Shown: positions 4,157 through 35,905 of the stretch, piece by piece
Layout: each line of letters begins with the position of its first letter
How positions within the stretch are numbered: position 1 is the first letter of the stretch
Assembly (NCBI GenBank): GCA_903847315.1
Contig: CAINDG010000029.1
Coordinates: 1 to 41,879 of the forward strand
Direction of reading: 5' to 3'
From: an uncultured Planctomycetota bacterium
GTDB lineage: Bacteria; Planctomycetota; Phycisphaerae; Sedimentisphaerales; UBA12454
DNA: 41,879 nt
Made by a program: the position numbers and the translations under genes
Notes under the pieces: generated by a model
The model's input: only the letters and a program-made list of their open reading frames with translations
The model's database searches: none
Told to the model about the DNA's origin: nothing

Positions 4157-4621
4157 ATGGCTGTTGTCGCACCGTTCTGTCAGTACAAAAAAACAAATTT
4201 CAAAATATACATCGGTCTTCTGCTGATTTTCGCGGCGTATTTTGCTTATGACGGCTATTACAACAAAAACTTTGCCAGCAAACATACATCGCTTGAAGGA
4301 AAACAGGACCCGACGCTTGTCTTTAATCGAAAATCTCCGCCTTATCTGTTGGCGGCAGCGGTAGCTGTGGCGATTTATGCCGGATTGCTATGGGGCAAAA
4401 AAATCATCGCCGACGACCAGCAGCTTATCCTAAGTGAAAAGGAAAAAATATCGTACAGATCTATTGAGAGCATTAACAAAACCGATTACGATTCAAAAGG
4501 TTATTTTGTAGTTGTTTACAAAGACAGTACCGGCCAAATGCTGCAGAAAAAGATAAGCAACCGAACTTTTGATAATCTCGATGCTGTTCTCCAGCTGCTT
4601 GTATCTAAAATCACCGGTTAA
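4157..4621 (+). CDS. Small two-TM protein with PH-like C-terminal domain
   Basis: A 154-residue protein with two hydrophobic helices (about residues 16-36 and 62-79), an intervening polar stretch, and a C-terminal segment of about 70 residues. That segment (IIADDQQLILSEKEKISY onward) has the pattern of a bacterial PH-like domain as found after paired TM helices in small membrane proteins. The start ATG is preceded by CCGGAG at good spacing. It sits 56 bases upstream of purA across a dispersed repeat. The PH-like reading is from pattern only and its role is unknown. Confidence 0.7.
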   Translation: MAVVAPFCQYKKTNFKIYIGLLLIFAAYFAYDGYYNKNFASKHTSLEGKQDPTLVFNRKSPPYLLAAAVAVAIYAGLLWGKKIIADDQQLILSEKEKISYRSIESINKTDYDSKGYFVVVYKDSTGQMLQKKISNRTFDNLDAVLQLLVSKITG

Positions 4622-24226: not shown

Positions 24227-25618
24227 TCAATTCGCTACACGGGTCTTCAGATAGCCTTTCTCGTCGAGGTAATCGGTGACTTGTTTGTCGGTATTTTTCG
24301 TTTTTTCTTTATCGGCATTGATTGAAACCGGTTTTTCTTTTTTCTCTTTGCTCAAGGTCTCTGCCTTTTCCTTTTTACTTTTTTCCTTTTCATCAGCCTC
24401 GTCTTTCGGAATCGTCAGGAGAGGTCTTTGTGTAATTTCGTTATATTTATTCATCTGCTCTTGTGTGGGTTTTTCGCCTTTGTAGATATGGGGCGAAAGA
24501 AGTACAAGCAGTTCGGAACTATTCTCGATAGTGTCCGTAGCCTTGAAAGCCAGGCCTATTAAAGGAAGATCTCCGAGAATAGGAAGTTGATTGGTCTGTT
24601 TCTGCGTTTCTTTTCGCCGCAGACCGCCGATAACAAGTATCTGGCTGTCTTTCAGCAGTAACGAGCTTTGTATTCTTCTTGTATCAACTGTCGGTACGCC
24701 GAGGAGCTTGCCTGTGTAAGCGCTCTGTTCGGTTGCGGTATCCAGGAGAATCGAGGTGTCATCCATCAGCGTTGCCGTCACATTAAGCTTTACTCCGACA
24801 TTTTTAAACTGCGTGCTTGTCAGCTGACCGCCATTGCTTGTATCGGACTGCTGCTGGTATGGTATTTCTTCAACGGATTCGATAGAAGCGGTTTTTCCGC
24901 TTGTAACCATCACGCGGGGACTTGCGAGGATTTCGATGTTATTTTTCTCCTGCAGTGCATGAATCACGTTTCTGATATCGCCGGAAATAAGCCAAAAGTC
25001 TGAGCCTGTACCGGTTGTATTGTAGGCTGTACCGTTGGCGACATTGTCTGTAGTGTCGGTTCCGATTGTTGATGATCCTACTGTGCTTTGCAGACGGTTT
25101 GAGAATCCCAAATTCTGTCTAAAAGTCGCTGTATTTTTAAGATCATTAGTAAGCATATCCCAACTGATGCCGAATTCAGTATCGTTATTGAGCTTGACAT
25201 CGACGAGAACGACCTCAATCATAATCTGCTCGGGTTTTCGGTCAACCTTGCGAATTTGCGCAATGATTCTTGCGAGATTTTCATTTGTGTCGCAGATTAT
25301 CAGCGAATTGCCTTTGGCGTCTGACACCATTTTGCCGTCTGTGGTCAACATCGGCTCAATCGAGGACTTAAGGCTCCCTGCGTCGAGAAACTTCAGCGTT
25401 ACGGTATCTACAAAGAGGTCAGGTTTTGAAACCGCAGGGCTTGCTGCTGTTGCTGCAGTAGCGGTCTGTTGTTTTGCTGCCGTAAACCGAGCAAAAGGAT
25501 TGCTCTGTGTTATTGAGTTTATATCTATTTCCTGCTCGCCAGCGGCCTGCACTATTGCGGCCAGACCCATCAGAATTACCGCTAAAAATAACTTTTTATG
25601 TTTATTTGTCTTTAACAC
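24227..25618 (-). CDS. Secretin (PilQ/GspD-like, short form)
   Basis: A 463-residue outer-membrane secretin. There is a signal peptide (cleavage near VQAAG, residue 26), one N1-type periplasmic domain (about 68-135: VTLKFLDAGSLKSSIEPML to IIAQIRKVDRKPEQIMIEVVLVDV) and the secretin core. The core includes EILASPRVMVTSGKTASI, the QSSLLLKDSQILVIGGLRR block and GDLPLIGLAFK, ending in SELLVLLSPHI. It is shorter than typical GspD or PilQ because it has few N-domains. An unusual Lys/Glu-rich tail of about 80 residues follows. It overlaps the end of the PilO-like gene by 17 bases. It is the likely exit channel for the pseudopilus or pilus encoded upstream. Confidence 0.93.
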   Translation of the reverse strand: MLKTNKHKKLFLAVILMGLAAIVQAAGEQEIDINSITQSNPFARFTAAKQQTATAATAASPAVSKPDLFVDTVTLKFLDAGSLKSSIEPMLTTDGKMVSDAKGNSLIICDTNENLARIIAQIRKVDRKPEQIMIEVVLVDVKLNNDTEFGISWDMLTNDLKNTATFRQNLGFSNRLQSTVGSSTIGTDTTDNVANGTAYNTTGTGSDFWLISGDIRNVIHALQEKNNIEILASPRVMVTSGKTASIESVEEIPYQQQSDTSNGGQLTSTQFKNVGVKLNVTATLMDDTSILLDTATEQSAYTGKLLGVPTVDTRRIQSSLLLKDSQILVIGGLRRKETQKQTNQLPILGDLPLIGLAFKATDTIENSSELLVLLSPHIYKGEKPTQEQMNKYNEITQRPLLTIPKDEADEKEKSKKEKAETLSKEKKEKPVSINADKEKTKNTDKQVTDYLDEKGYLKTRVAN

Positions 25619-26195
25619 TTGTATTCTCCTTAACCTTTAATGTGTATATACTTAAAGCAATATCGCAGCTAAGATAACCGCTTGCCGCGTTTTTCATACT
25701 GATATTTATTGAATCGACCCAGACCCTGGCAGTTCTGTTCTGGAGTGTATTTAAAAATTTCACTATGTTTCCATAATTTCCCGTAACGCTCATATTGGTC
25801 TGATACTGACGAATATCGAGCGAGTTGCTGCCCTTGACGGCAACGTCTCTTGCCGGCGAAAGTTTGAGATTTACAACAAGACAGCCGCTTTTTTCCGCTA
25901 CCGACTGAATGTCTGTAAGAAAACTTTTTGCCTGGTCGGCATTAAAAAAGGACTGTTTCTGCAATTCAAGCTGACAAGTGAGTTCCTCAAGCTTTTTCTG
26001 CTGCTTCGTCAGTTCTTTGTTTATAGATTCGCTTTTCTTTTCTATGGAATCTATGGTGGCGCGATATTCCTGGGCGGCTTTAAGATACTGTGTGTGGGGT
26101 TTAATAAACCAGTTGTACGCCGCAAAGGTGCATATAAACATTATTGCCGCCGCCATCGCGTTTCTTTTTGAACAACTTGGATATTTCAGCAACAT
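25602..26195 (-). CDS. pilO: PilO-like inner-membrane alignment protein
   Basis: A 197-residue protein with one N-terminal TM helix (about residues 13-29), a coiled coil (about 40-85, rich in Lys/Glu/Gln) and a ferredoxin-like periplasmic domain. The tail YGNIVKFLNTLQNRTARVWVDSINIS is the usual PilO / GspM signature. It sits between the PilM-PilN fusion and the secretin, exactly the position of PilO in pilMNOPQ operons. No separate PilP is seen in the - strand operon. The symbol is by family and order; GspM would also fit. Confidence 0.85.
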   Translation of the reverse strand: MLLKYPSCSKRNAMAAAIMFICTFAAYNWFIKPHTQYLKAAQEYRATIDSIEKKSESINKELTKQQKKLEELTCQLELQKQSFFNADQAKSFLTDIQSVAEKSGCLVVNLKLSPARDVAVKGSNSLDIRQYQTNMSVTGNYGNIVKFLNTLQNRTARVWVDSINISMKNAASGYLSCDIALSIYTLKVKENTSVKDK

Positions 26196-26216: not shown

Positions 26217-27749
26217 TTACTTTGCAAGAGAACAAACTATCGAATAATCAATCAGACCGTTACCATATTGTGTATTCTGTTTTGTGTCCGCAAGCTGAGC
26301 GGAGCTTACGATTTTGCACGCTGTCAGCCGGTTGATGAAATCGTTGATGGAATTATAATTTATAGCCATGCCTTCAATCTGCACTGTTAGCGAATCTCTT
26401 GCCTGCAAATTCTGAATTTGTATTGTTGGGGGAGCGATTGTGCACAATTGGGCCATTACAGAAGCCCAGTTATGCCAGGTTTCTTTCTTAAATATGGTTT
26501 TAAGAGCATCTATATCCCCGACAACCTGCTGGGTTTTATCGTTGACATCAGCCCGTGCCAGAAGCAATTGCGACATATCGATATTTGATATACTCTGTTT
26601 TTCCCGGTTAATCTTACGGGTGATAGACGTGGATTTATCCAGCAAAAACGTTATATACATAAGTACAAGCAGTAAAATTACGGCGGCGATATTTGCCATA
26701 ACAAACATCTGGTTGCGGGACTTTCTGATTTCATAGATTTCATCCGGCAGCAGATTGATGTTTATGCCGGAATCATTGACATCGAGTAATTTCATTGCGA
26801 CGCCTGCCGCGACAGGGGAAAAATCGCTGTTTGTCTCATCTTCGACAATAATGTCGATATGACTCGCGTCAATAGCGGAAATTTCAATGTTCTGACGGTG
26901 TAAATGGCCTTTCAATTGCTGTGCAATTTCCTTTGCCTTTGACGAATCCGGGCTGCAGGCTATAAAGATTGGCCAGTTTTTCTGGTCCGAGACCCTTTCG
27001 AGTTCATAAAACTGTATAACAGAGTCGATCTGTTCGGCAATCGCTCCGACATGGTCGGTCGAATTGGAAATATCAAAATCAAATTTCTTTGTGCGGAGAA
27101 AATCAAACTTCTGGCTGCTGAATACACACAGGCTCATATTGTCGTCGCGCAAAAGAACGAGCATTACATTAGATTGTCTGGCCGGTTTTATAACCTTGTT
27201 GTAACAGGCCCTGATAAGGGCAACAACTGCAGGTTCTATCAGTCGAACATCAAGATAATCTTTTTCAAACTCCTTTGTTATTGTACCGAGCGGCTCGGCC
27301 GGAGAAGCTCCCACCAGTACGCGTTTCTGCTCCGAACTGCCGGCGGCCCTGAGGGCGCAATAGTCCATCTTGATATTTTTAAGCGGAAGAACGGCATATT
27401 GTTTTATCTCGTCATGGATAAATCTCATCGCAGAATCCGGCGATGAATCGGGAAGATTCAGAATCTGGAGCAGTTCAGGTGACAGAGACAGGCACATACC
27501 TGCGTCGGAATGCCGTATATAGCTTGCGAGTCCTGATTTTTTTACAGCACTGGCAATAGACTTAAGATTCTCAACTCCGTTGCCGCCGGCGGATTCTTTA
27601 ATTGCTATGCGGCTATGGCCGACAATAGAAACCTTGCCGAAGTTTCTCTCAAGACTAACAACGTTCACAAAGCCGTTGCATACGTCTATTCCGATGGCTT
27701 TTTTGTATTGGTTTAGCCCAATGGCTTTTTTATGACTTGGCTTCTTCAT
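26217..27749 (-). CDS. PilM-PilN fusion protein of the secretion operon
   Basis: A 510-residue protein. The N-terminal part is an actin-like PilM domain (AIGIDVCNGFVNVVSLER at about 18-35). At about residue 328 comes the PilN signature ININLLPDEIYEIRKSRNQ, then one TM helix (about 347-367), a coiled coil and a small periplasmic ferredoxin-like domain. The GspL protein of type II secretion has the same overall plan. The ATG overlaps the stop of the preceding PilX/GspK-like gene by 4 bases (ATGA), implying translational coupling. It is much shorter after the TM helix than the + strand fusion at 16742. The PilM phosphate motifs look worn, so ATP binding is uncertain. Confidence 0.85.
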   Translation of the reverse strand: MKKPSHKKAIGLNQYKKAIGIDVCNGFVNVVSLERNFGKVSIVGHSRIAIKESAGGNGVENLKSIASAVKKSGLASYIRHSDAGMCLSLSPELLQILNLPDSSPDSAMRFIHDEIKQYAVLPLKNIKMDYCALRAAGSSEQKRVLVGASPAEPLGTITKEFEKDYLDVRLIEPAVVALIRACYNKVIKPARQSNVMLVLLRDDNMSLCVFSSQKFDFLRTKKFDFDISNSTDHVGAIAEQIDSVIQFYELERVSDQKNWPIFIACSPDSSKAKEIAQQLKGHLHRQNIEISAIDASHIDIIVEDETNSDFSPVAAGVAMKLLDVNDSGININLLPDEIYEIRKSRNQMFVMANIAAVILLLVLMYITFLLDKSTSITRKINREKQSISNIDMSQLLLARADVNDKTQQVVGDIDALKTIFKKETWHNWASVMAQLCTIAPPTIQIQNLQARDSLTVQIEGMAINYNSINDFINRLTACKIVSSAQLADTKQNTQYGNGLIDYSIVCSLAK

Positions 27750-29725: not shown

Positions 29726-31072
29726 TTACTCGGATGCGAATTTAGTCGGTTTGTAATCCCTGTATCTAAGGACATTAGCCAGTTGTTCGATTTCCGCCGC
29801 TGTGAGAGCGCGGTCGTAGATTCGCACATCATCGATTATGGCGGCGAGATGACTTTCATCATCGCCCCAATATTCCTCCCAACCGATTGCTCTTACATTG
29901 GTTGTTATTGCGCCTCCGGCTTGTGCACCAGAACTTTTTCCCTGGGAATTTCCATCCACAAACAATTCTACTGTATTACCAGTTCTTACCACCGCCACAT
30001 GGTACCATTTGTCATCATTCACTGGCGTTTTAGATATTACACAGGCCCATTGACCACCGCTATCTTGTCTAACCAAAATCACTGCTTTACCAGGATCACT
30101 ACAACCACCACCCGCATCTCCCACTGCGAAATCTATATCAGCCCCATCGAGATCTGGATTCCTGAGAGAGACAATCAAGCCATACTCCGCTGTAGTCTTA
30201 ATCCAGGCTGCTATTGTAAAAGGTTCAGAGTCTTCAAAATTAAGTGATGAATCATCCCCTAAATCGACATAATCATTCGTTCCATCAAAACCAAGCGCGC
30301 CGCCGATTGCTCCTCCTGTGGGCATCCAATTCGGATCATTGAAGACCAGTGTCCCATTGTTGTTGTTGCCTGATGAATCAACTGCGGTTGTTCCGCTGGT
30401 CTCATCCAGCTTCCACCATCCCACGAGCCCACTCACATTTGCGTTTGTCTGCAGATAGGCAGATGTGGTAAAGGTTTTTGTTGTCCCTGAAACTGTGTTA
30501 AAATCTGTTGCCACACTTACACATCGAATCATATTGACGTCAGTTGTCGGCGCATAATTATGGTCAATTGCATAACAGCTAATCTGAAATCTGCTCACAG
30601 GTCCTGCCAGTGGTGCTCCGCCGGTGCCGTCGTTGAAATCAACATATCCGCTGTTGAACTTATATTGTTTTTTGACGCCTAAAGTATCTTTAAAAATTAT
30701 GAAGCCGGTAGTGGTGCCGCTGGGACTGACGCTGAGAATCTGTTTTGCTGAAGAAAGATTTCTGTATAAGTGCTCTTCGAGAACTCTTCCATTCTGAATG
30801 ATTGTAGAAGACTCTTCGCTGCTTGCCCAGCTGTTTCGTATGGCGCGAAACTCCGGCACTATCGCTGCGAAGATAATCGCCATTAAGGCCATAGCCACTA
30901 ACATCTCGACCAGAGTAAACCCCCACACCAATTTACACTTTGGTTGATAATTTTGAAAACTGGCCAAAATGGTTTTGGATGTTTTTTTAAGCTTTACCGC
31001 CACAATGTAAATTGGTGTGGGGGTAAAGGCCTTTCCGCCTTGGCTGATTAAGTTATGTTTTTCCATACACAT
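29726..31072 (-). CDS. GspJ-like pseudopilin with LamG domain and an insertion-extended leader
   Basis: A 448-residue pseudopilin. The prepilin motif VWG FTLVEMLVAMALM is at residues 49-63, so the cleaved leader would be 51 residues, very long. Residues 16-51 derive from an inverted-repeat element inserted in the motif; without it the leader would be 15 residues ending QGGKA before FTLVEM. After the pilin N-helix comes a GspJ-like region (EFRAIRNSWASSEESSTII) to about 215. Then follows a LamG/concanavalin-like domain (about 218-430: LVGWWKLDETSGTTAVDSS to IDDVRIYDRALTAAEIEQL). The start is the ATG at 31072 with AAGGA upstream. The LamG domain would be displayed near the pilus tip, where it could bind a glycan. 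Confidence 0.85.
   Translation of the reverse strand: MCMEKHNLISQGGKAFTPTPIYIVAVKLKKTSKTILASFQNYQPKCKLVWGFTLVEMLVAMALMAIIFAAIVPEFRAIRNSWASSEESSTIIQNGRVLEEHLYRNLSSAKQILSVSPSGTTTGFIIFKDTLGVKKQYKFNSGYVDFNDGTGGAPLAGPVSRFQISCYAIDHNYAPTTDVNMIRCVSVATDFNTVSGTTKTFTTSAYLQTNANVSGLVGWWKLDETSGTTAVDSSGNNNNGTLVFNDPNWMPTGGAIGGALGFDGTNDYVDLGDDSSLNFEDSEPFTIAAWIKTTAEYGLIVSLRNPDLDGADIDFAVGDAGGGCSDPGKAVILVRQDSGGQWACVISKTPVNDDKWYHVAVVRTGNTVELFVDGNSQGKSSGAQAGGAITTNVRAIGWEEYWGDDESHLAAIIDDVRIYDRALTAAEIEQLANVLRYRDYKPTKFASE
30920..31023. mobile_element. About 104-bp MITE-like inverted-repeat element inserted in the gspJ-like gene
   Basis: Perfect 18-bp terminal inverted repeats, CCCCCACACCAATTTACA at 30920-30937 and its reverse complement at 31006-31023, bound a 104-bp element with no gene of its own. 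On the gene strand it is flanked by a direct repeat TTTA, or TTTAC if one end G/C is counted with the target (GCC-TTTAC on one side, GGG-TTTAC on the other). This fits a 4 or 5 bp target-site duplication. Removing the element plus one copy (108 bp, 36 codons) leaves GGA AAG GCC TTT ACT CTG GTC GAG, a normal prepilin motif. Related inverted repeats occur at 36431 and 37833. No transposase is in the window. Confidence 0.75.
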
Positions 31073-31404
31073 TTATACAATTTCCTTACATTGCTGCTCT
31101 GCGAAGTAGCTTCTATTCTTCGTAGTAGTCACGCTAAAGGTGTGCCACTGCTAAGGATAAATCGCTACGTAGCACGAGTAACTCTTTTAAAATATCGGCT
31201 TATGTAACGACCTTGCTAACTTTAAAGCCTATGCCGCTGCAAAATATCAAAAGCTGCAAAAATCCTTTAACAGCGGGACAGGAATGGATTTTTATCGGAC
31301 ATTGATGATTAATTAGAAAGGATTCTTTGATTCCAACTAATAAGTCCTATAACAAAAACAAAGAAATGAGAATTCAACCGCAGATTTTCAATCTTTAATG
31401 AGTT
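31073..31404. other. 332-base gap inside the pseudopilin operon
   Basis: This stretch separates gspI from the LamG-GspJ gene on the - strand, whereas neighbouring genes in the operon overlap or nearly touch. I find no open frame with a credible start and no RNA family I recognise. The half near gspJ has imperfect repeated words (TGCAGC twice within 22 bases) and a TACTACGAAG/CTTCG-type small hairpin near 31100-31130. It may hold an internal promoter or leader RNA, or be a decayed insertion. Confidence 0.5.
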
Positions 31405-31842
31405 TTACCATCTGCGTGCGATTTGAGTCTGAAGTCTAATCTCAATCTCGTCGTCGTCAAGTACGATATCGGAGTTGTGGTGCAGGCCGACCTCGACTTT
31501 AATTGTCTTGAGGTCGCCGCTGCCGCTTACTGTCGTCTTGCCAACGTATGAGCCGCTCAAACCCAAACCCTCGACATGTGGAATGGGAGTGACGATAATG
31601 CTGTCAAAGTTATAAATGGATTGTGCCTGAAGCTGATTAATTTTTGCCTGTGCCAGGCAAAGACTTTGTGTTCTTCTTTCAATGATTACGGTATTCATAT
31701 TTGCCTGTGTAAGAGCTTGTAGTATCGGAACAAGGGCATAAGCCAGCAGGACAGAGGCGACTATAACCTCGGTCAGCGTAAAACCTTTTTGCCGCTGCCG
31801 CCTGAATATATTCAACCTGAATTTTTTTACTGTTGTGTACAT
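31405..31842 (-). CDS. gspI: GspI-like minor pseudopilin
   Basis: A 145-residue prepilin-type protein with leader MYTTVKKFRLNIFRRQRQKG followed by FTLTEVIVASVLLAYALVPIL, the class III motif with Glu5 and the GspI-style helix. The CLAQAKINQLQAQ segment matches the xxLAxxKxxxL pattern of GspI. It overlaps the end of gspH by 16 bases. Minor pseudopilins I, J and K form the tip complex that starts pseudopilus assembly. The order H-I-J here is the standard one. Confidence 0.85.
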   Translation of the reverse strand: MYTTVKKFRLNIFRRQRQKGFTLTEVIVASVLLAYALVPILQALTQANMNTVIIERRTQSLCLAQAKINQLQAQSIYNFDSIIVTPIPHVEGLGLSGSYVGKTTVSGSGDLKTIKVEVGLHHNSDIVLDDDEIEIRLQTQIARRW

Positions 31843-32333
31843 TTTACCATTCCGGTAGTAGTAACAACAGATATCGCGAAAGTTTTTCCGCCTCCGACAA
31901 CGGTGAGTCCGCCGCTGCCGCCGGTTCTATTGCCAAGCGGGCCGAACCGGAATGTGCCGGAGCCGGGACTAGTACAGGTACAGGTGACTTTCGCAGGCCC
32001 TGATTCAACAAGCGTGCCTGGTATTGTGCCTGATTCAACAACCGTGCTTGTTTGGCCATTGATTACCTGGGCTATCTCGAATTTGGTATAGCTGCCTCCT
32101 ACCGTATTTTTCATACCAAGTTCAAAACCGTCCTGATTTGTGGCTGCATTGGAAATCGCGAGGGTTCTGCATTGGCGAATTGCGGCGGCTATTCTTTCAG
32201 CTCCTGTATTCGATTTGCCCAGGGCAACGACTGCACTCACCATCCGGGGAACGGTAATGAATGTAATTACGCCGATTATCATTACGACAACAACCAGCTC
32301 GACAAGCGTAAAACCTTTTCCGATAGTCTTCAT
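31827..32333 (-). CDS. gspH: GspH-like minor pseudopilin
   Basis: A 168-residue prepilin-type protein with leader MKTIGKG and helix FTLVELVVVVMIIGVITFI, followed by a GspH/FimT-like globular domain (IAAAIRQCRTLAISNAATNQ). A 10-residue tandem duplication (VVESGTIPGT-LVESG) comes from a 30-base direct repeat near 32000-32050. Position between gspG and gspI is as expected for GspH. The ribosome-binding site is not strong. Confidence 0.85.
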   Translation of the reverse strand: MKTIGKGFTLVELVVVVMIIGVITFITVPRMVSAVVALGKSNTGAERIAAAIRQCRTLAISNAATNQDGFELGMKNTVGGSYTKFEIAQVINGQTSTVVESGTIPGTLVESGPAKVTCTCTSPGSGTFRFGPLGNRTGGSGGLTVVGGGKTFAISVVTTTGMVKCTQQ

Positions 32334-32440: not shown

Positions 32441-32764
32441 TTAATTATGGCTGCATGAAACTCTGTAGCTGGCGTTCATTGTGTAGGAAGTACTTTTTTG
32501 GGAAATCGGGCATACCGGTGGGCCATCCGGGAAATATTTTAAGTTGCCTGTAACTGTAGCAAGTGTCGTCGGATAGACACTATTGTGGTCAGCCGCGTAC
32601 ATCTCAATCTGCGTATTCATCACGTCGACATTTGTATTGCAGGCGTTAGTCTTGGCCGTTTCCGCACTGGCAGTGATTCTCGGTATCGCGATAGCCGCAA
32701 GAGCTCCCAGAATCAGAATTACTATGAGTAATTCAATTAACGTAAACCCTTTTCTTGATTTCAT
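32441..32764 (-). CDS. gspG: Major pseudopilin (GspG-like)
   Basis: A 107-residue prepilin-type protein with leader MKSRKG, then FTLIELLIVILILGALAAIAIPRI, the typical type IV pilin / GspG helix. The short mature domain has a C-terminal Cys pair (PPVCPIS and RVSCSH) that may form a disulfide loop. A good AGGAG-like site precedes the ATG (AAAAGGAGATAACA). It follows gspF by 131 bases and is followed by an attenuator-like hairpin. The size is small for GspG (about 140), so it may equally be called a type IVb-like pilin. Confidence 0.87.
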   Translation of the reverse strand: MKSRKGFTLIELLIVILILGALAAIAIPRITASAETAKTNACNTNVDVMNTQIEMYAADHNSVYPTTLATVTGNLKYFPDGPPVCPISQKSTSYTMNASYRVSCSHN

Positions 32765-32895: not shown

Positions 32896-34092
32896 TTACT
32901 TCAAATGAGACATATAATCGAACATTGGCAGATAGACTGCCATCAGTATCAGTCCGATAACTGCACCCATTCCTGCTGTAAGTATCGGCTCAAGCTTGAC
33001 CAGCAGCAAGTTGGTTGTACGTTCCACATCCTTTTCAAGAAAATCGACACCTTTGTTCAGCATTTGTCCAAGCTGACCGGCCTGTTCGCCCGAGCCTGCC
33101 AACTGGACTATTATCGGCGGGAAAATGTCATGGTTCTCAAGTGCTTCGGCAAAGCTGACGCCCGATTGTATTGACTTTTGAATATCCCTGCTTATATAGG
33201 AAATTTTTTCGTTATTTGTCACAAAAGCAGCCACCTGAAGAGCTTTTATTATTGGTACACCCGTTACTATCAGCATGGCAAAGCTTCTGATGAAATGCGA
33301 TACGGTGACTGTTTTATTGAGTTTTCCAAGTAAAGGTATTGAGAATTTTAAATAGTCCCATTTAGATTTTATGTATGCATTTTTACGGATGTAGTTAATA
33401 CAGAACGGCATAGCAAATATAACCATAATAAGAATAGGCCAGAACTTTCTTAATATAACACTGAGTACGATAAGCGTCTGGGTGGGACCCGGCAGGGGGA
33501 CTCCGAGCTGGTGATAAATCTTTGAAAAGACAGGTACCACAAACAATACCAGTGCCGTTACTACGACCGTGCACATAACCAAAACGACTATCGGATATGT
33601 GAATGCGCTTTTCAGACGGTTTCTCAGCTCGGCCTGCTTTTCAAGATATTTTGCGCTTATCTCGAGACTTTCAGCGAGTTTGCCGCTGGATTCGCCGGCT
33701 TCTATCATTCCAAGAAAAAATGGGGAGAATGTATCGCGATACTTGCCAAAAGCGTCGGTAAGCGATGAGCCGATCTCGACATTCTTTCTTATGTCCGTGA
33801 TAATGAATTTCAGCGACAAGTTATCCGTCTGTTTTTCAAGCGTTTCAAGGCACTGTATAATAGAAAGCCCTGCGCTGCACATACCAGCCAATTTATACGC
33901 AAAAGCTACAATCTCCGGCAGTTTTATCCTGGTTGAACCGAGCTTTAAGGCTTTTTTCCTTTTCGCCCGCAGCAGACTGTAACCTATTTTCGTCAGTTCA
34001 CTGCGAAGTGCACCTGTGCCGTTTACGTTGTCATAAACGCCACTGAAAATATGCCCTGTCTCGTCGCGGGCCGTATATTCATACATTGCCAT
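32896..34092 (-). CDS. gspF: Inner-membrane platform protein (GspF/PilC)
   Basis: A 398-residue polytopic protein with the two repeated GspF domains. The first is around residues 57-180 (FAYKLAGMCSAGLSIIQCLETLE, then FFLGMIEAGESSGKLAESLE) and the second around 260-380 (FIRSFAMLIVTGVPIIKALQ, then PIIVQLAGSGEQAGQLGQML). Three TM helices are seen. The family anchors the assembly ATPase and moves pilin subunits into the fibre. Its ATG shares one base with the stop of gspE (TAATG), so the two are translationally coupled. Confidence 0.95.
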   Translation of the reverse strand: MAMYEYTARDETGHIFSGVYDNVNGTGALRSELTKIGYSLLRAKRKKALKLGSTRIKLPEIVAFAYKLAGMCSAGLSIIQCLETLEKQTDNLSLKFIITDIRKNVEIGSSLTDAFGKYRDTFSPFFLGMIEAGESSGKLAESLEISAKYLEKQAELRNRLKSAFTYPIVVLVMCTVVVTALVLFVVPVFSKIYHQLGVPLPGPTQTLIVLSVILRKFWPILIMVIFAMPFCINYIRKNAYIKSKWDYLKFSIPLLGKLNKTVTVSHFIRSFAMLIVTGVPIIKALQVAAFVTNNEKISYISRDIQKSIQSGVSFAEALENHDIFPPIIVQLAGSGEQAGQLGQMLNKGVDFLEKDVERTTNLLLVKLEPILTAGMGAVIGLILMAVYLPMFDYMSHLK

Positions 34093-35792
34093 TAGTCCAC
34101 CTGCATATCAACAACGCGATATAATTCTTCCAGTGAAGTCGAACCGGCAAGAACGTGCTGGAGTCCGCTTGTTTTTAATGTTTTCATACCCTCACTTATT
34201 GCTTTCCGTTTTATCTCGGTATCGCTTTTGCCTGCGATCATCATATCTCGAATTGCGGCTGTAACAGGCAGTATTTCGTATATTGATTTTCTTCCCATGT
34301 AACCGGTTTTGGCGCAGTTATCGCAGCCGCTGTTGCGATAAAGAACCATATCCGCCGGGGCATTGGCAAAAAACTGTTTTTTAATCTGCGGGTCGGGCGT
34401 ATAAGACTCTTTGCAGGATGAGCAGGATGTTCTGATAAGTCTTTGAGCGACGGCGCCGAGCAGAGACGAGGCAATCATAAAAGACGGTACGCCGAGATTT
34501 ATCAGACGGGATATCGCGCCTGCCGCGTCGTTGGTATGAAGGGTCGAAAGAACCAAATGACCGGTCATCGCGGCGCTGACGGCAATTTCTGCTGTCTCAA
34601 AGTCTCTGATTTCGCCAATCAGGATAACATCCGGGTCCTGTCTTAAAATGCTCCTCAACGCAGAGGCGAATGTCAGTCCTGCACGCAGGTTGGTTTGCAC
34701 CTGCGTAATGCCCGCCAATCTGTATTCGACAGGGTCTTCTACGGTTACAATATTATTTTTGCCGGTATTCAGAAGCTGCAAAAGAGAATAAAGCGTTGTG
34801 GTTTTGCCGCTTCCTGTAGGGCCGGTAAGAAGAATCATTCCATAAGGATTATCGGTAAGTTTTCTGATGCGCTGGTTGTCGAATGGGTCCGGGGCGATAT
34901 TGTTGAGGTTCCACTTGCTGCCGCTTTTGTTGAGAATTCTTATAACAAGTTTTTCGCCAACGATGGAAGGCAAAGAGGAAACTCGCAGGTCGTATTCCTT
35001 GTCGTGATGAGTTGTTGTGATATGACCGTCCTGAGGCAGACGTTTTTCGGCTATATCCATATTCGCGAGAATTTTAAGATGACTGATTATTTCCGCCTGC
35101 GCTGAAGAGGGGATATCGAGCTCTTTTCGAAGGATACCGTCGATTCTATATCTGACCGCCATATCTTTTTCCTGCGGTTCGATATGAATATCACTTGCTC
35201 GCGAGTCAATCGCGCCGCTGAGAATCGACGCTACAAGACTGCTGACAGGGTCATGACTTTCCTGAAGCTGGTCAAGAACTGCCGAGACCTGCTTTTCCTG
35301 CTCGGCATTTTTTTTGAGTCTCATCGAGGCAATCGTCTGCTTGGTTACGTTCTGAACGTTGAAATGATAACGGATAGCGCCCTTTATCGCGTTTGGCGTC
35401 GCCGCCACGGGTATGACCTTGCAGCCCGTCCGCATTTCTATCTGGTCCCGAATTGCAAGGTTCATCGGCGAACTCATCGCCACGTAAAGTTTGTCTCCTT
35501 CCATACGAATACCGATAAGATTCTGCTCGTTCGACAGTTCATAAGGAATCAAATGCGCCGCGATTGGCTCAATCATATCAGGCGAAAGATTTACAAAATC
35601 GATTTTCTGACTCAAAGCGATAAGTTTGGCCAGCTGATCGTCGGTGGCGAGATTGTTTTCCTTCAGGTACATTATAATGTTTTTGCCGCTTTGAGCGCAC
35701 TGCTCATACAATTTGGTAAGCTTTTCTTCATCTGCGATGCCCAGACGGATAATCTCGTCAAATAACGAATTGTCAGTTTGCAATTTTGTCAT
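34092..35792 (-). CDS. gspE: Assembly ATPase (GspE/PilB)
   Basis: A 566-residue hexameric ATPase that powers pilus or pseudopilus extension. The N-terminal MshEN-type domain (residues about 1-140) carries repeats such as LATDDQLAKLIALSQKIDFV; in some homologues this domain binds cyclic di-GMP. The catalytic part has Walker A GPTGSGKTTTLY, an Asp box around VTVEDPVEY, Walker B DPDVILIGEIRD, and the His box TGHLVLSTLHTNDA. A CxxC...CxxC zinc site (TSCSSC, GCDNC) is present near residues 448 and 482. I chose ATG at 35792; a GTG four codons upstream (35804) is possible. It heads the operon and is divergent from the response regulator. Confidence 0.95.
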   Translation of the reverse strand: MTKLQTDNSLFDEIIRLGIADEEKLTKLYEQCAQSGKNIIMYLKENNLATDDQLAKLIALSQKIDFVNLSPDMIEPIAAHLIPYELSNEQNLIGIRMEGDKLYVAMSSPMNLAIRDQIEMRTGCKVIPVAATPNAIKGAIRYHFNVQNVTKQTIASMRLKKNAEQEKQVSAVLDQLQESHDPVSSLVASILSGAIDSRASDIHIEPQEKDMAVRYRIDGILRKELDIPSSAQAEIISHLKILANMDIAEKRLPQDGHITTTHHDKEYDLRVSSLPSIVGEKLVIRILNKSGSKWNLNNIAPDPFDNQRIRKLTDNPYGMILLTGPTGSGKTTTLYSLLQLLNTGKNNIVTVEDPVEYRLAGITQVQTNLRAGLTFASALRSILRQDPDVILIGEIRDFETAEIAVSAAMTGHLVLSTLHTNDAAGAISRLINLGVPSFMIASSLLGAVAQRLIRTSCSSCKESYTPDPQIKKQFFANAPADMVLYRNSGCDNCAKTGYMGRKSIYEILPVTAAIRDMMIAGKSDTEIKRKAISEGMKTLKTSGLQHVLAGSTSLEELYRVVDMQVD

Positions 35793-35905
35793 AAAAAATC
35801 TCACATAATATCAACATACTTTTAGCGCATTATAAAAATCGTCATAAACCCCCTTAGGCTTAACGAAGGATTGAATAAGTTGGCTGGTTTCACAAGGACC
35901 GATAA

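Follow-up and report, generated by a model that had tools for sequence, protein, structure and literature searches.

MITE-like hairpins ending in GGG probably use the prepilin leader as a safe harbour in which prepilin peptidase would clip off the insert

How can a pilin-like gene hold a palindromic insertion within its prepilin peptidase motif and still read as an intact prepilin gene? The glycine at position -1 is needed for prepilin processing, and the leader is a hydrophilic cytoplasmic peptide that is cut off by PilD (PMC6497953). In the window, by which we mean the whole 41,879-nucleotide stretch of DNA that was analysed, the gene at 29726-31072 (minus strand) is a 448-residue open reading frame that translates as MCMEKHNLISQGGKA-FTPTPIY...KCKLVWG-FTLVEM, and its domain matches describe a pilin-like protein in the GspJ position with an N_methyl motif and a C-terminal Laminin_G_3 domain. 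This laminin-G/concanavalin-like domain gives the protein a layout comparable to that of the modular pilin PilC of Streptococcus sanguinis (PMC6497953). Upstream lie three further pilin-like genes that carry no element, in the GspI position (31405-31842, with an N_methyl match), the GspH position (31827-32333) and the GspG position (32441-32764), followed by T2SSF (32896-34092) and an MshEN/T2SSE ATPase (34092-35804); a secretin (24227-25618), PilO/T2SSM (25602-26195) and PilN (26217-27749) belong to the same system, and all are on the minus strand. Because its neighbours are a secretin, PilN, PilO, T2SSF, T2SSE and three more pilin-like proteins, we assign the host gene to the pilus or secretion system, and to judge from the domain matches it is apparently part of a complete T4P/T2SS-like one.

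The insertion, at 30920-31023 and read on the minus strand with the gene, is a MITE-like palindrome of 104 bp that belongs to type A of family 1. Its limits are CCCCCACACCAATTTACA at 30920-30937 and the exact reverse complement of this sequence at 31006-31023, and direct reading confirms the perfect 18-bp inverted repeats that the sequence-only reading had placed around a 104-bp segment. On the gene strand the upstream repeat (31006-31023) is CCCCCACACCAATTT and encodes T-P-T-P-I after the Phe, and the downstream repeat (30920-30937) is AAATTGGTGTGGGGG and supplies V-W-G; the whole element is open in the host frame and with flanking bases encodes TPTPIYIVAVKLKKTSKTILASFQNYQPKCKLVWG. The tetranucleotide TAAA (TTTA on the gene strand) adjoins both ends as a target-site duplication, one copy at 30916-30919 within the rebuilt G-FT motif and the other at 31024-31027 as a remnant of the original A-FT motif. 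The direct repeats had been given as TTTA(C); the four bases stand, and the C does not, as it opens the element at one junction and the host codon at the other. The hairpin is more stable than that of every shuffled sequence (z = -5.6 folded as DNA and -6.5 as RNA), and a search of 30500-31500 against Rfam at the gathering score gave no matches.

The consequences for the protein are as first described, in that removal of 108 bp (the element and one TTTA) yields GGKA-FTLVEM and the leader has 15 residues without the element and 51 with it. The original leader, MCMEKHNLISQGGKA (31028-31072, minus strand), matches that of an empty-site orthologue described below. The rebuilt prepilin peptidase motif is GGGTTTACTCTGGTCGAG (G-FTLVE; 30905-30922, minus strand), with the cut predicted between Gly (30920-30922) and Phe (30917-30919). 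Both TIGR02532 and Pfam N_methyl fit the downstream motif of the protein, from residue 51, and leave the upstream motif unmatched; this placement and the reading of the frame support the claim that the inserted element re-creates G-FT within a prepilin motif. The window copy keeps a Trp before the rebuilt Gly, which had been called unusual and proves to be so, since none of 44 sampled uninserted prepilins has Trp at this position and 24 have Lys or Arg (Lys, the commonest, in 23). We also considered whether the old site had acquired its Ala at -1 by decay after the insertion and reject this for the window gene, as the empty orthologue also has Ala; eight of the 44 uninserted prepilins do as well.

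Related elements are found elsewhere in the source genome and in one other genome. The 2.44-Mb assembly of the source (G000) has 11 copies of 101-106 bp with CCCCNNCACCAATTT-type ends, and a Phycisphaerae genome from another genus of the same taxonomic family (G183; LacPavin_0920_SED3_MAG_44_51, JAPLMW) has 27 clean copies. In an exact-pattern search of 161 genomes of the order, TTTA-flanked copies of family 1 were confined to these two, and in the same type of search they were absent from the other genomes of the source genus. The CCCCNNCACCAATTT-type terminal inverted repeats are conserved among copies that diverge by 12-25% from each other. Perfect 4-bp duplications, mostly TTTA/TAAA, flank 15 of the 38 copies and eight of the ten in prepilin motifs, and TTTA/TAAA is present on at least one side of 35. 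Prepilin motifs account for four of the 11 copies in G000 (the window GspJ-like gene, a PilV-like gene at C25, a GspG/DUF1559-like gene at C47, and C7) and for six of the 27 in G183. The remaining G000 copies are intergenic or at gene ends, except for one in frame within a YkgJ-like gene (C13). Of the 11 in-gene copies seen in the two genomes, ten are at prepilin motifs. The YkgJ-like copy (1502-1605) is 104 bp long, lies in a Cys-rich protein, and is read in a phase unlike that of the prepilin copies. The mature parts of the prepilin host genes are mostly non-homologous and the flanks are unrelated, and the prepilin copies fall into two sequence types, all in one orientation.

Two of the G183 contigs, C72 and C44, both break off in one GspJ gene; they have a downstream segment in common and hold differing copies of the element, and the reading frame of C72 is broken after the motif; one of the two may be an assembly chimera or other artefact, or a duplicate. 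No transposase or autonomous copy with the family ends was found in G000 or in the loci examined, in assemblies whose fragmentation may hide one, and single ends in G000 all pair at about 100 bp and none at a transposase-sized spacing. Viral contigs gave no matches to the paired-end pattern, and plasmids showed no DNA similar to the element.

Orthologues with empty sites are available for several hosts. The sequence-only reading had asked for one for the window gene, and it is found in G005, of the same genus, where a GspJ 69% identical to the window protein reads MRVKKHNIICRSRKA-ITLIELIVAM. The orthologue of the C25 gene in G183 (C26, 75% identical) is also empty and reads LKIEHLKATVKNEG-FTLAEAM, as is that of the C47 gene in G002 (70% identical; MRERIKKG-FTLVELL). 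An empty allele therefore exists, and both target duplications and the link to prepilin genes recur among the other copies. GspJ carries an element in both G000 and G183 and is empty in the closer relative G005, a pattern that could reflect independent insertion, loss or transfer.

The link to prepilin motifs is much stronger than chance would give. The density of TTTA/TAAA in the 41.9-kb window (13.9 per kb) extrapolates to about 34,000 sites per genome, some 7,300 of them intergenic, and there are about 22-24 prepilin motifs per genome. On this extrapolated count the motifs have an expected share of about 0.07% of all TTTA sites and about 0.3% of intergenic plus prepilin sites, and the observed copies exceed these expectations 310-560 fold and 70-120 fold respectively. 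The corresponding probabilities, 6e-11 (G000) and 4e-14 (G183) against all sites and 3e-8 (G000) and 4e-10 (G183) against intergenic plus prepilin sites, exaggerate independence, because the copies are related and C44 and C72 are perhaps one locus. The over-representation holds after a few copies are dropped, and the proposed link to prepilin motifs, counted against chance in both genomes, is strong at 70-560 times the TTTA expectation.

Copies in prepilin motifs also bear marks of selection at the coding level. Among the ten, nine measure exactly 104 bp, which the duplication brings to 108, and keep the frame; elsewhere nine of 28 copies keep it (p = 0.003), which is close to the one-in-three level of chance. 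These nine share one orientation and have no stops in phase 0, and the reverse orientation of the five type A prepilin copies has stops in all five. For the frame-keeping prepilin copies, type A gives a pN/pS of 0.55 and type B one of 0.46, and the predicted leader peptides encoded by the element are under purifying constraint. The codon that precedes the new Gly is TGG (Trp) in the consensus end and AGG, AGA or AAG (Lys or Arg) in seven of the ten prepilin copies; a Lys or Arg codon next to Gly is seen at none of the ten upstream ends of the same copies (p = 0.003) and at five of 56 ends elsewhere (p = 1e-4). Because three different codons are used, we conclude that several separate changes from Trp to Lys or Arg have occurred. 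The tenth prepilin copy (G183 C11:4404; 4404-4509, 106 bp) breaks the frame; it provides an ATG start of its own, with MKSLSKKKYLRINTLVWG-FTIME as the resulting basic leader.

Hairpins of a second family, with CCCGTTAGAGA ends (CCCGTTAGA(G/A)A), lie at the F-T codons also used by family 1 in at least eight prepilin genes of other genera, all in frame, with copies seen in G183, G181, G004, G044, G052 and G088. The inserts of this family encode F(T/I)PLE...(S/F)LTG-FT, and the seven translated loci have elements of 65, 65, 68, 68, 74, 77 and 98 bp, each of which gives a multiple of three when the 4-bp duplication is added. At G183 C65 (around 103391) the two families are stacked in a single prepilin leader. 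The hairpin families have end sequences CCCCCACACCAAT or CCCGTTAGA and share a terminal GGG and a TTYA target, and because these two features suffice, the Gly before Phe-Thr is rebuilt by either. Leaders can hold other sequences as well: a diverged 98-bp palindrome in G005 (C17) lies at the same prepilin position with the frame kept (leader ..PPHQ..KLASG-FTLVE), and, within the same taxonomic family, prepilin leaders in G006 (GYRVQGTGYR) and G179 (CFATLAMTRC) hold unrelated repeat-like sequence. As far as can be read from such leaders, this suggests that prepilin leaders tolerate many insertions. We also note that CCCCCACACCAA ends are present on hairpins of 27 to 303 bp in genomes of Patescibacteria, Omnitrophota, Cloacimonadota and KSB1, and that in several of these, including those of Omnitrophota, the symmetry continues into the flanks (GAATTTGA...TCAAATTC).

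We consider it probable that these are MITE-like hairpins, ended by GGG and targeting TTTA, for which the prepilin leader serves as a safe harbour at the protein level, with the insert clipped off by prepilin peptidase. A non-autonomous palindromic element with CCCCCACACCAATTT ends inserts at TTTA with a 4-bp duplication, as its many copies indicate and presumably through the action of an enzyme, and the prepilin G-F-T codons (GGN TTT ACN) contain such a target. Insertion at this point keeps F-T, adds 36 codons and places a new Gly directly before the second F-T, because the element ends in GGG beside the duplicated TTTA. Ribosomes would then read through the element, the insert of 35 residues would become part of the cytoplasmic leader, and cutting by prepilin peptidase at the rebuilt G-F would leave the mature pilin unchanged and the insertion nearly harmless. 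After insertion, to judge from the statistics above, selection holds the frame, the orientation and the absence of stops and often replaces the Trp codon by one for Lys or Arg. The second family, with CCCGTTAGAGA ends, would take the same route.

There are several alternatives to consider, and they differ in how the prepilin excess and the constraint on the insert are to be explained. Survivorship could in principle suffice, the element having entered any TTTA and been lost from nearly all other coding sequences, with no preference for prepilins; targets are nearly all TTTA-like (35 of 38), the non-prepilin copies are mostly intergenic, and an in-frame copy does persist in the YkgJ-like gene. 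However, the excess is about 70-120 fold even relative to intergenic TTTA, where insertion should be tolerated, and although slower decay of constrained copies could account for part of this, we give survivorship by itself slightly less than an even chance. Enrichment over intergenic sites is what would be expected of an active tropism, in which the machinery recognizes a longer target that resembles the prepilin motif (G[GC]NTTTAC or the conserved DNA coding for GFTLVE); the entry of two hairpin families at the same 4 bp, and the presence of elements in GspJ and one DUF1559-like gene in two genera with close relatives empty, also fit with this. Nevertheless, TTTA(C) is all that the non-prepilin copies have in common, selection or retention could give the same pattern, and no enzyme was found in the loci searched, and we regard tropism as rather unlikely.

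The intact frames bear on the remaining alternatives. Translation could re-initiate inside the element at TTG or GTG (..AAA TTG GTG AGG GGG TTT AC..), three to four codons ahead of the new Phe, giving a short leader M-V-R-G-FTLVE with the upstream part untranslated, and the 106-bp copy with its internal ATG is an instance of what this would look like. But nine of the ten copies are in frame without stops, with the upstream start and leader intact and pN/pS in the insert below one, and because an internal start would need none of these constraints, re-initiation seems improbable as a general account. We think it similarly improbable that the prepilin copies stem from a single ancestral insertion, carried to other loci by duplication, gene conversion or horizontal transfer of prepilin genes and not by transposition; the two sequence types in one orientation, and the homologous pairs across genera formed by GspJ and by the DUF1559-like genes of C47 and C65, are in keeping with such an origin, although most host genes are unrelated in their mature parts and differ in their flanks, orthologues at 69-75% identity are empty, and the non-prepilin copies interleave with the others by similarity. 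Least probable by far is that the window gene is merely decayed or misassembled, with a junk insertion. The assemblies are MAG-like and fragmented, the element is repeated and C72 has its frame break, but the window frame is intact at 448 residues with recognizable domains in an apparently complete operon, the divergence of 12-25% lets assemblers separate the copies, and two assemblies agree.

The prepilin safe harbour is the reading that we prefer, and we lean, somewhat less firmly, towards a general form of it, in which different hairpin families with GGG ends and a TTYA target recurrently enter a hot spot at G-F-T codons and are healed by proteolysis, the strongest form being that their machinery has evolved a preference for prepilins. 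Multi-copy, duplicated-target and empty-site comparisons support the earlier proposal that the inverted-repeat element is mobile, insofar as sequences alone can speak to movement. Two further suggestions fare less well. The element need not be tuned to land in prepilin genes, as the rebuilt site needs only GGG and TTTA, which the second family has as well, and the bias is due at least in part to survivorship; and diversification of pilin leaders is a doubtful function for peptides that are constrained and predicted to be discarded. The mechanism would give a mobile element low-cost entry to an expressed gene, by insertion at a point where the protein is cut and delivery of a new cut site, and it predicts which genes and which four bases can host such elements. 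It would explain the unusually long pilin leaders of some Planctomycetota, and those with F(T/I)P(T/L).. and ..(K/R)G-F or LTG-F repeats may, as a caution for annotation, be derived from elements.

In the open-access literature, the coverage of which is incomplete, we came across no previous account of MITEs resident in prepilin genes, although several known systems offer likenesses. As in bacterial MITEs, there are terminal inverted repeats, a short target duplication, many diverged copies and no capacity to encode a transposase, but the prepilin element is tied strongly to one protein motif, shows coding selection, and has no autonomous partner with the same ends in the genome and loci searched, and we call it MITE-like on structural criteria, not a proven MITE. 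REP and BIME sequences, mobilized by RAYT (Y1) proteins, are likewise short hairpin-shaped repeats with conserved tips and many copies; they differ from the prepilin element in that the latter lies in genes and shows direct duplications of 4 bp and complete terminal repeats, and no GTAG-type tetranucleotide was noticed in the copies read. Inteins are similar in that an insert is tolerated and the product healed after translation, but the prepilin insert has no self-splicing, and the host's prepilin peptidase would remove it only because it is in the leader. A closer parallel is with the Rickettsia palindromic elements (RPEs), reportedly described by Ogata et al. in 2000 and 2002. RPEs are short, palindromic, non-autonomous repeats that interrupt protein genes without breaking the frame and add a conserved peptide to the translation product (PMC10969869), and the prepilin element is also an in-frame palindrome in protein genes that encodes a peptide. 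As described in PMC10969869, RPEs are set apart by phylum, ends and length (about 150 bp versus 104 bp). They are hosted by numerous unrelated proteins, metabolic ones for the most part, and stay in the product, whereas the prepilin element is at the cleavage motif, rebuilds the processing site, and encodes a peptide predicted to be removed. By analogy, the prepilin element would work most like RPEs, except that host processing should remove the insert.
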